From positions 1-34,774 of the forward strand of contig CAMYIK010000006.1 in the NCBI GenBank assembly GCA_947258365.1: DNA of 34,774 nucleotides, read 5' to 3'. This document shows positions 25,447-31,315 of this stretch, piece by piece. A model generated the notes under the pieces. That model did no database searches, was not told where the DNA came from, and saw only the letters and a program-made list of their open reading frames with translations. A program made the translations under genes and the position numbers. This stretch comes from an uncultured Thermoleophilia bacterium (GTDB lineage Bacteria > Actinomycetota > Thermoleophilia > Miltoncostaeales > Miltoncostaeaceae). Numbering within the stretch: the first letter of the stretch is position 1; each line of letters opens with the position of its first letter.

Positions 25447-27362
25447 CAGACGCGCTCCAGGTAGATGGTTCCGGACCCATCGCGGCGCGCCGACCAGTCA
25501 GCGCCGATCCAGCACGTCGCCCCGTCGATGGGCAGTCGTGATGGACCATGCCCGAGCGGCTCGGGCGCGCCGGATGACAGGTCAGGCGACACCCCGGGGC
25601 GAACCGCGGCCACGCGCAAGGAGACCGCCTCGACCGGTCGCTCCGGATGCCCATCGCCGTAGCGCTCGCGATGCAGCTCGTGGAAACCATCAAGCAGGGT
25701 CGTCGCGCTTGCGACGTCCCACGGCACGGTCAGAGAAAACGCCTGACCAGCGTAACGACAGTCCACAGAGACGCGGTGTTCGGCACCGGGCAGCTCGGAC
25801 TCCGCCCGCCCCTCGAGGGGCACAAGGTCGCGACGAAGTCCCTCGACGTCCCACGCGTCCCTGAGAACGGTTTGAACGTAGTCGCGCCGCTGCCCGGCCA
25901 CGATCAGACCAAGCGCCGCGAGCAGACCCGCTGCCGGCGGCACGATGACCGTCCGTACGCCCAAGGCGTCAGACACGTCCGCAGCGTGCAGTGGCCCGGC
26001 TCCGCCGAAGGCCAAGAGTGCCGCGTTGCGTGGATCAACACCACGCTCCACACTGACGCGCCGTAGTGCGCGCACCATCTCCTCATTGGCGACCCGGATG
26101 ATGCCGCTCGCGCACGCCTCAAGGTCGAGACCCAGCCGAGTGGCCAGCGACTCGACCGCGGTGCTCGCCGCGTCGAGGTCAAGAGCGATAGCGCCACCGA
26201 ACGTGGCGTCGGCATCCAATCGGCCAAGGACGAGGTTGGCGTCGGTGACGGTGGGCTCCGTGCCGCCGTGGCCATATGCCGCTGGACCGGGTTGGGCACC
26301 CGCAGAGTGCGGGCCTACGCGCAAGGCGCCGCCGCTATCCATCCACGCGATGCTGCCGCCTCCGGCCGACACCGTTTCGATGTCGAGCATCGGCAGGCTC
26401 AACGGGTAGCCGGCGATCACGGTTTCGCTGGTGCGTGCCGGCTCTCCGTCCCGCACCAGGGCAACATCGCATGAGGTGCCGCCCATGTCGAAGGTGAGAA
26501 GCAGAGGCGCGTCCACTGTGCCGGCGATGTCGGCTGCGCCAATCACACCCGCGGCAGGTCCGCTCAGCACCATCCAGGCCGCATGCTCAGACGACGCGCC
26601 GATGTCCAAGACTCCGCCGTTGCTCTGCATGATGCTGGGCGCGGGCAAGCCCGCCTCCACTGCGCGGGCCTCGAGACTCTCGAGGTAACGCCGCAGCACC
26701 GGCGTGAGATATGCGTCGACCACAGTGGTCGAGATGCGCTCGTACTCCCGGATCTCGGGCAGCACGTCACTTGATGCACTGACGTGCACGCCGGGCAGGG
26801 CAGTGCGGAGCGCCTCGACGATGCGCTGCTCATGCTCAGGGTGGGCGAACGAGAAGAGCAGGCCGACCGCTATGGCCTCGGGCGCGCGTTCGGTGATCTG
26901 CTGAACCAAACTCTTGAGTGCTGTCGCTGAGAGGTCGCGAACGAGGCCGGACGCACTGAAACGCTCATCGGCCTCGACAACCATCTCCCGTGAGACAAGG
27001 GGCGGCGCGTGCGCCTCGCTCAGGCGATACAGATGCGCTCGGTTCTGACGGCGCAACTCCAGCACGTCACCGAAGCCCTCCGTGGCGATCAGCGCCGTTG
27101 TGGCGCCTTTGCCCTCCAATAGGGCGTTGGTGCCGACGGTCATACCATGAGCAAAGGCGCCGATATCCGATGTGGCGAGACCCGCAACATCAAGCGCGGC
27201 CATGACGCCCGCAAGGACCCCGATGCTTTGATCCTCCGGGGTGCTCGGCACCTTGGCGGTAAAGAGCCGACCGCCCAACTCCAGCACAGCGTCGGTGAAT
27301 GTGCCGCCTACATCCACGCCCACCCGTGCGAGGGGGGCAGAAGCCGAGGACGCGCTTATCAT
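25446..27362 (-). CDS. Hydantoinase A/oxoprolinase family protein
   Basis: This 638-residue HyuA-type subunit begins with the actin-like ATPase phosphate motif VGVDVGGTFTDAVLEL. Further family motifs are AHGMTVGTNALLEGKG, PEIREYERISTTVVDAYL, LTFDMGGTSCDVALV and FGGAGPLHAADV. It supplies ATP-dependent activation to the HyuB subunit. ATG 27362 is preferred over the more upstream in-frame start because homology starts about 13 residues later, and because TAGAGT stands seven bases before it. It is divergent from the secreted-protein gene at 27381 with only 18 bases between. Confidence 0.88.
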   Translation of the reverse strand: MISASSASAPLARVGVDVGGTFTDAVLELGGRLFTAKVPSTPEDQSIGVLAGVMAALDVAGLATSDIGAFAHGMTVGTNALLEGKGATTALIATEGFGDVLELRRQNRAHLYRLSEAHAPPLVSREMVVEADERFSASGLVRDLSATALKSLVQQITERAPEAIAVGLLFSFAHPEHEQRIVEALRTALPGVHVSASSDVLPEIREYERISTTVVDAYLTPVLRRYLESLEARAVEAGLPAPSIMQSNGGVLDIGASSEHAAWMVLSGPAAGVIGAADIAGTVDAPLLLTFDMGGTSCDVALVRDGEPARTSETVIAGYPLSLPMLDIETVSAGGGSIAWMDSGGALRVGPHSAGAQPGPAAYGHGGTEPTVTDANLVLGRLDADATFGGAIALDLDAASTAVESLATRLGLDLEACASGIIRVANEEMVRALRRVSVERGVDPRNAALLAFGGAGPLHAADVSDALGVRTVIVPPAAGLLAALGLIVAGQRRDYVQTVLRDAWDVEGLRRDLVPLEGRAESELPGAEHRVSVDCRYAGQAFSLTVPWDVASATTLLDGFHELHRERYGDGHPERPVEAVSLRVAAVRPGVSPDLSSGAPEPLGHGPSRLPIDGATCWIGADWSARRDGSGTIYLERV

Positions 27363-27369
27363 CAGCCCG

Positions 27370-27375
27370 ACTCTA
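27370..27375 (-). promoter_or_regulatory. Putative -10 box for a leaderless hyuA transcript
   Basis: On the minus strand TAGAGT lies seven bases before ATG 27362. It sits in the 18-base gap shared with the divergent gene at 27381, which has no similarly good box. Confidence 0.37.
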
Positions 27376-27380
27376 CTCCG

Positions 27381-28451
27381 ATGCTTGCCCACCGCCGCTA
27401 TATCGCGCCCCTGGCGCTGACCCTGCTCATTCCCGCCGCGCCCGCGCACGCGGCGCCCGATTCGGCCTTTGTGCGCCCGGTGGTCCAGATTGCCGCCGGC
27501 CCACCCAACGGCGACTTCGCCGCGGGGGTGAGCGGATGGGCGCCCGTCGGCCCTCGACCCGTGGTGACAAGCGCATCCGGCGCGGCGCGCTTCGTACGGC
27601 TTGGCGCGAACACCACCCTGCTATCCAGCGCCATGGTGGTACCGGGTCGCGCTCAGTCACTCACCATCGAGGCACGCTCGCGCTCGCGCAGCGGCATCCT
27701 CATGGTGCGAGCAATCAGGGAAGACGGTAGCCAGGCCAATCTCGGCACCATCGTTCCGGCCAACGGCTTTCGTCGCTACGAGGTCGGGTTGGGGCCCGTC
27801 CGAGGGCAGACCGTGCGCATCGTGCTCGACCCGGTAGCGGCGCTGGGACGGACCGTCGACATTCGGCGCGTGGGGCCACTACGGCAGGTCGCCAGGGGTT
27901 GGCTGGTGCGGCGCGGAGCGCCACGCCGGGTCACCCGTGGCGTGATCGAGGTCGAGACCGGAGAGCTCACAATGACCTCAGCTGGCTTCAGACCCGGCGG
28001 AGGAGCCCGTGCTGCCCAGGTCCAGGTGCGCGGCTCCGGCGTCGTCCGGCTCAAGACCGGCGGCCGCACCGCCAAGATCACCGCGTCGAATCGAAGGTGG
28101 AAGAACCTCCGTGTGCCGCTGTCACCTCGAACCTTGCGGGCAAGCATCACGGTCCGAGCGACCCCAGGGGCCGGAACTGTTCGCCTTCGCCGAGTAGGCA
28201 GCGTGGTGCGCCGGCCAAGCCTCCGATCCTTCGCCACGAGGCTCACTGGTGGGCGCCGGGTCATCAGCGGTCGCCTTGTGCCAGCCGGAGGCCGCCTTCG
28301 TGTTCAAGCGCGGGCTGCGAATGGGCGCATCATCGGGCGCGCGCGCAGTAACCGCCGCGGGAATTTCCGCATGGTCGTGGCAGGAGTGCCGGCGCGCATC
28401 ACTACGGGTGGCGACGCGACACGCGTCGCGGCGAATCTACGGGTGCCCTAG
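27381..28451 (+). CDS. Secreted basic beta-rich protein, unknown function
   Basis: A 356-residue protein with a signal peptide (MLAHRRYIAPLALTLLIP, cleavage probably after AHA near residue 22). The mature part starts with NGDFAAGVSGW, a motif common in carbohydrate-binding beta-sandwich modules, and continues in beta-strand repeats. It is strongly arginine-rich, ending in alternating basic and hydrophobic strands (GRVVSGRLVPAGGRLRVQ-type). No catalytic signature is seen. Cell-surface or polysaccharide/DNA binding is possible but inferred from composition only. ATG 27381 is the natural start because it begins the signal peptide. Confidence 0.68.
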   Translation: MLAHRRYIAPLALTLLIPAAPAHAAPDSAFVRPVVQIAAGPPNGDFAAGVSGWAPVGPRPVVTSASGAARFVRLGANTTLLSSAMVVPGRAQSLTIEARSRSRSGILMVRAIREDGSQANLGTIVPANGFRRYEVGLGPVRGQTVRIVLDPVAALGRTVDIRRVGPLRQVARGWLVRRGAPRRVTRGVIEVETGELTMTSAGFRPGGGARAAQVQVRGSGVVRLKTGGRTAKITASNRRWKNLRVPLSPRTLRASITVRATPGAGTVRLRRVGSVVRRPSLRSFATRLTGGRRVISGRLVPAGGRLRVQARAANGRIIGRARSNRRGNFRMVVAGVPARITTGGDATRVAANLRVP

Positions 28452-28513: not shown

Positions 28514-28828
28514 ATGATCACGCTGTACCAACTCGAGCGATGCCCTTGGTGCTCGGCCGCCCGCCAGGGTATGCGCAACGTGGGAATCGAGGAATACCGC
28601 ATCGTCAACGTGCCGCGTGACCGTGACGGACGGGGCGTGCTCGAGGAGCTCACGGGCCAACGCCGTGTACCGGTGATGGTCGATGAGGACACCGTCATCT
28701 GGGACTCCCGACGGATCGTTCGCTATCTGTATGAGACGTATGGGGGTGAGGAGCGCACCCGGTCAATCGAGGAACTGCGCGACGTTCCTGGAGGAGAGCG
28801 CAAGCTCTCGCAGGCTCCTACGGCTTAG
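28514..28828 (+). CDS. Glutaredoxin/GST N-terminal-fold protein
   Basis: A 104-residue thioredoxin-fold protein. It begins ITLYQLERCPWC with a CPWC motif (C10, C13), has a cis-proline at RVPVMVD, and ends the fold with WDSRRIVRYLYETYG, which is typical of GST N-terminal and glutaredoxin-like domains. A thiol-disulfide or mycothiol-type conjugate role is likely, but the partner is unknown. There is no GST C-terminal helical domain. The stop shares the tetranucleotide TTAG with the convergent zinc-ribbon/SPOR gene. Confidence 0.8.
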   Translation: MITLYQLERCPWCSAARQGMRNVGIEEYRIVNVPRDRDGRGVLEELTGQRRVPVMVDEDTVIWDSRRIVRYLYETYGGEERTRSIEELRDVPGGERKLSQAPTA

Positions 28829-29634
28829 GAGACAACCCTGCGCGGGTTGGCGCCCGGAAAATCAACCCTGAGGCTGTCCGCCTGATCGACGGCTTCCGCG
28901 CGGGTGTCGTACACCCCGCTGTAGACCACCCAGAACCCCGGGTTGAGGCCCTCGTGGTCGCTTGAGAAGAGTAACCCAGCCTCTTCGCCGAGAGCCTCGA
29001 CACGCTGGCGAGTGCCGACCGCTTCGGCACCGTCGGTCACGGAGCTCACGAAGACCGTCCAGCCGGTGGTGCCGGTGGGCCAATCGGACGTGGCCGTCTC
29101 GGTCGGGGTGGAGTCGGTCGGAGTAGGAACAGGGTCGGTAACCGCTGTGTCGGTCGGGTCCTCGAAGCCGTCCGTGTTCGCCTCGGTCTGGCTCGGATCA
29201 AACACCCCGTCATCGTTAGTCGTAGGAGCGGCAGGGTCTGGCGGAAGCCCGCCGTCGGTGGTCGCGGGAATCTCGGTTGCGGCCTCGGTGGCCGTGGTGT
29301 CGACCGATGTCACGGCCGCACCCGTCTCGCCGGATCCGGAGTCGCCGTCTTGCAGCACGGCGAACGCGACGCCGCCACCTACCAAGCCCAGGCCGATGAG
29401 CCCGGCGACGATCAGGGGGCCGAACTTCGCCGGCGACGTGATTCGCGGGGCGATGTCGGTCGGGGTGCCGCACTCGAGGCAATAGAGCTGGTCGGAATCG
29501 AGCGGAGACTCGCACTGCGAGCAGGCGCGAGCCCCATCGTCGGCGCCATCGGAGTCTTCGGACGCGGCAAGCTGCGCCCCGGCCGACGTGGGCGGGGTGT
29601 TGCTATTCAGCCAGTCATCGCCGGACTGGCTCAT
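28825..29634 (-). CDS. Membrane protein with N-terminal zinc ribbon and C-terminal SPOR-like domain
   Basis: A 269-residue protein with three parts: a cytoplasmic zinc ribbon (C38, C41, C52, C55 in CSQC...YCLEC), one membrane segment (about 71-94) and a long Thr/Pro/Asp-rich exported linker. A C-terminal SPOR-like domain (about 190-265: WTVFVSSVTDG, then GFWVVYSGVYDTRAEA) completes it. SPOR domains bind denuded glycan strands of peptidoglycan at division sites. The zinc ribbon inside and glycan sensor outside suggest a structural or signalling link across the membrane. Its ATG overlaps the stop of the other zinc-ribbon gene (ATGA), so the two are coupled. Confidence 0.78.
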   Translation of the reverse strand: MSQSGDDWLNSNTPPTSAGAQLAASEDSDGADDGARACSQCESPLDSDQLYCLECGTPTDIAPRITSPAKFGPLIVAGLIGLGLVGGGVAFAVLQDGDSGSGETGAAVTSVDTTATEAATEIPATTDGGLPPDPAAPTTNDDGVFDPSQTEANTDGFEDPTDTAVTDPVPTPTDSTPTETATSDWPTGTTGWTVFVSSVTDGAEAVGTRQRVEALGEEAGLLFSSDHEGLNPGFWVVYSGVYDTRAEAVDQADSLRVDFPGANPRRVVS

Positions 29635-30245
29635 TCCTCGATCGTTCCGATCTCGGCGGTCAGAGCGCTCTGGTCGCGCGTCTCAGGCGCGAAGCGCACG
29701 CCACACCGCCAGCAGAAGGCGGCCTCAGGGGCGAACTCGGCCCCGCAGCTCAGACACGCGCCGGCAACAGGCGGCTCCATGCCCTTACGCTCACGGCGCT
29801 CCGTCTCAATCGCCTCCAAACGCCAGTCCAGCAGGCGCACCTGCTCGTCGAGGTCGATCAGCTGCGCTGCCTTGCCCCGAAGGACCGACTCCGTCAGCGC
29901 ATCGCGCCGGAAGAGCTCCAGCGCAAGGCCGCCGAGGTGGAATTGGGCCTCCTGGCGCTCGCCGTCGAGGCGCTGGCGGTCGCGCTTGATGCTACTGCGG
30001 CTTGGCGTCCTGCCGGGCTTCGGCGCGCCGGCGCCGGTCGGCTCTGACTCCTCAGCGCTCTGCTCGGGCGTCGCGCTGAGCCCCGGCTCAGCCTCAGGCT
30101 GCGCTGCGGGCCGCACGTCATCAGCCTCGTCGCGGCTGCGCTTCCTGAACAAGCGTCGCCGGGGCCGCGTGGCCGCCTCGATGCTGTCGGAGCCGGGATC
30201 GAGGCCGGCAGGGGCGTCGGGCTCTATGGGGGTCTCGTCAGACAA
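29631..30245 (-). CDS. Zinc-ribbon protein with coiled-coil region
   Basis: A 204-residue soluble protein. The first 80 residues are low-complexity (Pro/Glu/Ala-rich, with a basic RPRRRLFRKRSRDE stretch). Residues about 85-153 are charged and probably coiled coil, and the end carries a zinc ribbon (C164, C167, C178, C181 in CLSC...FCWRC). I recognise no enzyme domain. It is translationally coupled to the zinc-ribbon/SPOR membrane protein and may be its cytoplasmic partner, since both ribbons are of the same type. The TTG start is inferred: a TAGATT box lies eight bases upstream, fitting a leaderless transcript. Confidence 0.65.
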   Translation of the reverse strand: MSDETPIEPDAPAGLDPGSDSIEAATRPRRRLFRKRSRDEADDVRPAAQPEAEPGLSATPEQSAEESEPTGAGAPKPGRTPSRSSIKRDRQRLDGERQEAQFHLGGLALELFRRDALTESVLRGKAAQLIDLDEQVRLLDWRLEAIETERRERKGMEPPVAGACLSCGAEFAPEAAFCWRCGVRFAPETRDQSALTAEIGTIEE

Positions 30246-30418: not shown

Positions 30419-31315
30419 GTGGCTGAAGAGAATTCCGCCCATGGCAGAGGGCGCACAGCTTTCCTTGTCGGCGGCACCGGAGTAGTCGGCGCACAGATTC
30501 TCAAGCGCCTGCTCGCCCAAGGATGGAGCGTCCGCGCCCTGGCTCGGAGCATCCACGCGGAGACGGCGCTTCGAGACTCGGGCGCCCAAGTCGTGCCCGG
30601 CGATCTGATTGATGATGACCACACGTGGCACGAAAAAGTCGCCGGAGTGGACCTCATCGTGCATTCCGGACTCCCTCGCTTGAGTCCTCCGCTGAGGAGA
30701 CGCCGGGTTGGTCGTCTGACGCGCCGTGCACAGCAGGGCATTCGAGGGCTACTCACTGCCGCAGATCCCGAAGTGCCGGTTGTCGCCGTGTCGACGACGA
30801 TGGTTGAGGATGACTTGGCCCTTGGCCGGCCGGCGCGAGCGCTCGAGCTGGAGCTGCAGGGGCACGCGAACACCACGATCGTGCGCTTGCCATGGGTATA
30901 CGGAGCATCGGGTCCGCTCGCTTGGGTCTCCCAAGGGGTGCGCGCCCGTCGATACCGAGTCGTCGGGCCGGGGACGAATCATTGGCCGATGATTTCCGCG
31001 CCAGACGGAGCACAGGCCATTCTGCTCGCTGCGGAGCTTGGGCCGGGGACCTTCACCGCCAGCGAAGAGGACGCCCCTCGCCAGAGGGAACTCGTCGAGC
31101 ACCTTTGCGCGAAGGGGGGAACTCCAATCCCCGACCATGTGCCGCAGATACTCGCGGGCTACAGCCTGGGCGCTCCGCTCGCCGCGGCGCTTGCCTCCGA
31201 CGCGCAGCCCGTCAGATCGGAGGCGCTCGTCGTCGCAGGATGGCAACCCCGCCACGGGTGGCGCGATGATCTGCTCGAGCTCACTCGGCCTGAAGAGGCT
31301 CCTGCGGAGGAATGA
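30419..31315 (+). CDS. NAD(P)-binding epimerase-like protein (atypical extended SDR)
   Basis: A 298-residue protein with the dinucleotide-binding loop GGTGVVG (18-24) in AFLVGGTGVVGAQILKRLL, followed by a Rossmann pattern (VRALARS, VVPGDLIDD, VDLIVHSGLP) and LPWVYGASGPLAW, as in NAD-dependent epimerases. The catalytic YxxxK motif is not visible where expected: the region VSTTMVEDDLALGRPARALE has no tyrosine-lysine pair. It may be an atypical SDR or a NAD(P)-binding regulator. GTG 30419 has GAGGA just upstream. Its end overlaps the convergent hypothetical gene by 35 bases. Confidence 0.72.
   Translation: MAEENSAHGRGRTAFLVGGTGVVGAQILKRLLAQGWSVRALARSIHAETALRDSGAQVVPGDLIDDDHTWHEKVAGVDLIVHSGLPRLSPPLRRRRVGRLTRRAQQGIRGLLTAADPEVPVVAVSTTMVEDDLALGRPARALELELQGHANTTIVRLPWVYGASGPLAWVSQGVRARRYRVVGPGTNHWPMISAPDGAQAILLAAELGPGTFTASEEDAPRQRELVEHLCAKGGTPIPDHVPQILAGYSLGAPLAAALASDAQPVRSEALVVAGWQPRHGWRDDLLELTRPEEAPAEE

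Follow-up and report, generated by a model that had tools for sequence, protein, structure and literature searches.

What could two small zinc-ribbon proteins do together when their genes overlap and one of the proteins is predicted to cross the membrane and end in a SPOR-like domain? In this study, we addressed this question for genes A and B in a window of 34,774 nucleotides (the whole stretch of DNA that was analysed), which corresponds to contig 6 in the 2.76-Mb draft genome (a MAG) of a member of the Miltoncostaeales (Actinomycetota, Thermoleophilia).

Architecture and conservation of the A-B pair

On the minus strand A comes first and B next, and both the open reading frames and the ATGA overlap of the original prediction were confirmed (Table 1). 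The pair is flanked on the opposite strand by genes for a glutaredoxin-like protein (28514-28828) and an epimerase-like protein (30419-31315), and A and B therefore form, by arrangement, a transcription unit of their own. B and the glutaredoxin-like gene converge, and their stop codons overlap at 28825-28828. Further along, the plus-strand gene at 27147-28451 encodes a protein of unknown function with only a sub-threshold Pfam match, and relatives of this protein (cluster 10) are encoded next to A and B in several further Miltoncostaeales genera. A functional link of the pair to the hydantoinase-like, RelA/SpoT and glutaredoxin-like flanks was rejected, because these reflect local synteny within the order and differ elsewhere.

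Table 1. Features of genes A and B in the window
Feature	Residues	Position	Strand	Basis or remark
Gene A, cytosolic helical-hairpin zinc-ribbon protein		29631-30245	-	204 aa, TTG start
Gene B, zinc ribbon, membrane helix, linker and SPOR domain		28825-29634	-	269 aa, ATG start
ATGA, overlap of A stop and B start		29631-29634	-	
A helical hairpin (coiled coil), L-G-G-L core	83-154	29784-29999	-	AlphaFold
A zinc ribbon, CxxC-x10-CxxC	164-182	29700-29756	-	C164, C167, C178, C181 invariant
A tail motif TAEI	196-199	29649-29660	-	T196 at least 90% conserved
B zinc ribbon, predicted cytosolic	38-56	29467-29523	-	C38, C41, C52, C55 invariant
B membrane helix	~70-93	29356-29427	-	Sequence; helix 72-85 in AlphaFold model
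B linker, predicted extracytoplasmic, Thr/Pro-rich, disordered	94-184	29083-29355	-	Sequence; low pLDDT
B SPOR domain, Thermoleophilia variant without canonical Gln	185-269	28828-29082	-	Pfam profile, model, fold match

Both proteins carry two CxxC knuckles about 10 residues apart, the pattern of zinc ribbons such as PF12773, PF13240 and PF13248. DZR and Zn_ribbon profiles were found in most A homologues. AlphaFold modelled an antiparallel hairpin in A with helices 83-113 and 119-154 (pLDDT of about 95), followed by the C164-C181 ribbon, in agreement with the coiled coil and zinc ribbon that had been proposed. G105, G106 and L107 of the hairpin were invariant among homologues, and a fold search with A returned only generic hairpins and zinc knuckles. 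The N-terminus of A is disordered and contains a basic-hydrophobic patch, RPRRRLFRKRS, at about residues 27-37 (30135-30167). This patch recurs in A relatives as PKRFLFLRRR and could bind membrane or nucleic acid.

The ribbon of B (CxxC-x10-CxxC, residues 38-55) was matched by the Zn_Ribbon_1 profile in 25 of the 27 homologues. Since Arg and Lys precede the hydrophobic stretch at about residues 70-93, the sequence predicts an N-in, C-out topology for B. When full-length B was searched by sequence against the PDB, only OspA and rubrerythrin were returned, both weakly. In the window, PF12773 matched B with its first half and A with its second half. We considered whether the two proteins complete one double zinc ribbon, with one half from each, but rejected this, as another family has the halves the other way round. 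Staphylococcal TcaA is a zinc-ribbon bitopic envelope protein with a cytosolic ribbon, a single membrane helix and an outer domain. By this general description B can be likened to TcaA, but the outer domain of B is SPOR and B has an A-type partner gene.

Among the 42 genomes of the order, B was present in 34 and A in 31, and A adjoined B, in the order A, B, in 29. Nearly all of these 29 pairs overlapped by 1 or 4 bases (ATGA, GTGA or TGATG), which rules out chance open reading frames. Across the class, A-type matches were found in 226 of 230 genomes, many of them probably to the zinc ribbon alone, and B-type matches in 178. In about 50 genomes from the rest of the class, the two match tables, compared by eye, placed both genes on the same contig and no more than about 2 kb apart. 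The gene order was B, A in several lineages (L133-L136, L163 and L164), with adjacency kept, and the neighbours of the pair changed between families. The matches followed up outside the class, in a 399-genome sample of the phylum, were mostly to the SPOR domain alone. A single A sequence used as the query against genome contigs gave no match; an alignment query for B gave loci. The expectation that the two genes would be conserved together was thus borne out, and A and B very probably work together.

In several families of the class, a small protein is encoded a few genes away from the pair (L125:9281-10057, L126:8955-9404, L130:6255-6725, L137:6289-6759 and others). It has the form MYxFSRxIY... 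with a Cys/His-rich C-terminus, CxATTRKGxPCQRTPLPxxxYCPSHQHL, and the two copies scanned gave no Pfam match. A Thermoleophilia-like pair was also seen at loci L142 and L160, in records titled 'Bifidobacterium breve' and 'Chlamydiae bacterium', and these records are apparently MAGs that were mislabelled or mixed.

The SPOR domain of B and its ligand site

The proposed build of B, a zinc ribbon, one membrane helix and a SPOR domain, was upheld at its C-terminal end by profile and by fold. PF05036 matched all 27 aligned B homologues (best E 1e-7), several of them above the Pfam cut-off; the window's own B scored 17.0 bits, below the 21-bit cut-off. The AlphaFold model of residues 191-268 showed a strand-helix-strand-strand-helix-strand order with a mean pLDDT of 92-98 per 10-residue block. 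The top PDB folds for B included the SPOR domains of CwlC (1x60), DedD (6ztg) and RlpA (6i05/6i09), which matched with probabilities of 0.98-1.00 and E values of 0.005-0.09. A sequence search of the PDB with the SPOR domain alone placed CwlC first, although weakly (E 0.02). The modelled fold supports the assignment of B to the SPOR family. The domain is likely to be extracytoplasmic and to engage the wall.

RlpA contacts denuded glycan through a highly conserved polar residue, the strand-1 Gln Q270 (Q251 in FtsN), and the lactyl carboxylate is bound by a basic patch that canonical SPOR domains share (PMC6895207). We aligned 26 Thermoleophilia SPOR domains with four E. coli SPOR domains, and mafft and hhalign agreed on the strand-1 register. 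The canonical Gln position was occupied by Ile, Val, Phe or similar residues in all 26 Thermoleophilia domains and by Gln in all four from E. coli. In the alignment, strand 2 showed no conserved basic residue and the strand-3 core, FWVVYSG, contained Lys or Arg in none of the 26 domains. The relatives of B thus all differ from FtsN in lacking both Q251 and the basic strand-3 residue R285 (PMC6895207). They share a conserved signature of their own, W-T-x-x-x-x-S and S-S-D-x-x-x-L-x-P-G-Y-W-V-V-x-S-G, with S198 among the conserved residues. Because the Gln and the strand-3 basic residue are missing, binding of denuded glycan by B should not be assumed, and binding in the canonical way is doubtful. 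The original prediction that this domain would bind peptidoglycan glycans is therefore weakened.

The same SPOR variant was observed on other proteins. In other Actinobacteria, it forms the outer domain of a membrane Ser/Thr kinase (L191:3515-5458, minus strand) and occurs on a PASTA membrane protein (L186:2461-3768, plus strand) and on a trypsin-like protease with an N-terminal CxxC ribbon (L189:1684-3048, plus strand). Within the class, it occurs on a lipoprotein (L193). A Pfam scan gave no SPOR match in the L191 kinase or the L189 protease. The window's genome also encodes a second SPOR protein (G000:C58:339-1439, also L183:339-1439, minus strand) with a C-terminal match above the cut-off. 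This protein is a secreted N-acetylmuramoyl-L-alanine amidase (Amidase_3) and could make denuded glycan.

The tail of A and the PknB/PstP/FHA genes

Past the zinc ribbon, T-x-x-I occurred 50 times in the 29 A homologues of the order, compared to 7.1 expected from shuffling of each tail, with 14 as the highest of 1000 shuffles. With one sequence per genus, the motif occurred 14 times against 1.8 expected and was present in 10 of 11 genera, a count reached by none of 5000 shuffles. The control motifs T...I, S..I, V..I and A..I were not enriched in A tails. The commonest form was [DE]-Q-x-T-x-[VA]-I, occurring one to four times; Ile is at +3, and no Ser was seen in place of Thr. The window's own A has a single strict match, TAEI, and is a weak example. 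In the rest of the class, enrichment was limited to a looser motif that has any hydrophobic residue at +3; the sample was redundant, and T-x-hydrophobic was enriched in it as well.

Since the Thr is never replaced by Ser and the +3 position is hydrophobic, the tail resembles a phosphothreonine ligand of FHA domains. Such a Thr-specific motif in a disordered tail is what would be expected of an FHA adaptor, with the class-wide result being weaker. The +3 rule for FHA domains is debated (PMC4037201). In mycobacteria, phosphothreonines in the C-terminal tail of CwlM, a wall regulator, bind FhaA (PMC6180346). A is similar to CwlM in being cytosolic with Thr sites in its C-terminal tail, and the kinase and FhaA genes of the CwlM-PknB-FhaA circuit are also found in the window's genome. 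However, a profile search detected no amidase domain in A, which instead has a zinc ribbon, a hairpin, a membrane SPOR partner and only putative phosphorylation. GarA and OdhI carry a phospho-Thr motif of the ETTSVF type. Like theirs, the Thr motif of the A tail is short, lies outside any folded domain and has a hydrophobic residue near +3, but the motif in A is C-terminal, has Ile at +3 and is present in up to four copies, and A has no FHA domain. We rate the chances that FHA domains dock on phospho-Thr in the tail of A as even.

The window's genome contains one block, fhaA-fhaB-pstP-rodA-pbpA-pknB(PASTA)-ddl, which encodes FhaA (FhaA_N and FHA), FhaB, a PP2C phosphatase, RodA, PbpA, a PASTA kinase and Ddl. 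The PknB, PstP and FHA genes with which an FHA adaptor would work are thus all present. In the same genome, T-x-x-hydrophobic sites were noted by eye in the juxtamembrane regions of PstP (TAEIP) and PknB (TAVM and TQVM) and in the FhaA linker (TQVF). The A-B pair is located outside the pknB operon.

A possible role at the cell wall

The reading that we prefer, with confidence a little below even, is that B anchors A at a cell-wall site and that A is a phospho-switched adaptor for PknB/FHA. A and B would form a single two-protein unit, in which B would cross the membrane with its N-terminus inside and its Thr/Pro linker would span the cell wall. The variant SPOR domain would be placed on a wall site, probably the septum, and B would hold A in the cytosol via the A hairpin and/or both zinc ribbons. 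A PknB-type kinase may phosphorylate Thr in the tail of A, and the phosphorylated tail may then dock an FHA protein, FhaA or FhaB, so that the pair would couple the wall site to the PknB/PstP/FHA circuit. Support for the association of A with B is strong; our view of the phospho-switch and of the ligand is inferred. The model is favoured by the adjacency kept under gene-order reversal and changing flanks, the SPOR profile and fold matches, the T-x-x-I tail, the PknB/PstP/FHA genes with their similar Thr sites, the same SPOR variant on a Ser/Thr kinase and a PASTA protein elsewhere, and the precedent of CwlM. It is weakened by the weak tail of the window's A, the looser motif outside the order, the debated +3 rule, the position of the pair outside the pknB operon and the missing SPOR glycan contacts. 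A device linking wall state to a cytoplasmic partner had been suggested earlier with that partner left unnamed; the T-x-x-I tail of A, which had gone unnoticed, suggests that the partners are FHA proteins from the PknB circuit.

Rather less probable is a septal or division wall module without phospho-signalling, in which B would be an FtsN/DamX-like protein with its own glycan-binding residues, A would be a cytosolic scaffold and the tail would dock unphosphorylated, for example by strand addition. By sequence and model, B has the topology of E. coli FtsN, DamX and DedD, being N-in and bitopic with a long disordered linker and a C-terminal SPOR fold. B is also the only SPOR protein above the cut-off in the Miltoncostaeales genomes G018 and G019. 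B differs from those three proteins in that its cytosolic part is a zinc ribbon and it is encoded with a zinc-ribbon partner. Moreover, an unphosphorylated strand motif would not require Thr, never Ser, with Ile at +3, and the canonical SPOR contacts to glycan are missing.

It is also conceivable, but improbable, that the SPOR variant senses another ligand, such as a modified glycan, lipid II or a wall protein, and that B signals to A in a manner not tied to division. The signature that replaces the Gln and the basic patch is consistent with such a sensor, as is the occurrence of the variant on a kinase, a protease and a PASTA protein; the closest folds, however, are still CwlC, RlpA and DedD. 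That A and B are unrelated small proteins which do not touch and are only co-expressed, their genes staying adjacent because of dosage or operon inertia, is very unlikely given the class-wide adjacency despite reversed gene order and changing neighbours.

Returning to the anchored-adaptor model, its parts are of known kinds; to the extent that we could check, the novelty lies in their combination, in the loss of SPOR residues and in the tail motif. The statement that no pair of this architecture had been described stands within the open literature searched. No paper combining SPOR, zinc ribbon and peptidoglycan, or SPOR and Thermoleophilia, was found in one open literature collection, in which absence is not proof. 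A further, speculative proposal that we regard as unlikely is a Thermoleophilia wall checkpoint, where a SPOR domain of new ligand specificity would report wall state across the membrane to an FHA-read zinc-ribbon partner acting as a class-specific adaptor. Such a checkpoint would be parallel to, yet distinct from, PASTA kinases and FtsN. Wall control and cell division have been little studied in Thermoleophilia. The class-wide pair offers a concrete and testable link of wall state to PknB/FHA signalling, and with the variant SPOR domain the extent of divergence in SPOR ligand recognition can be addressed.
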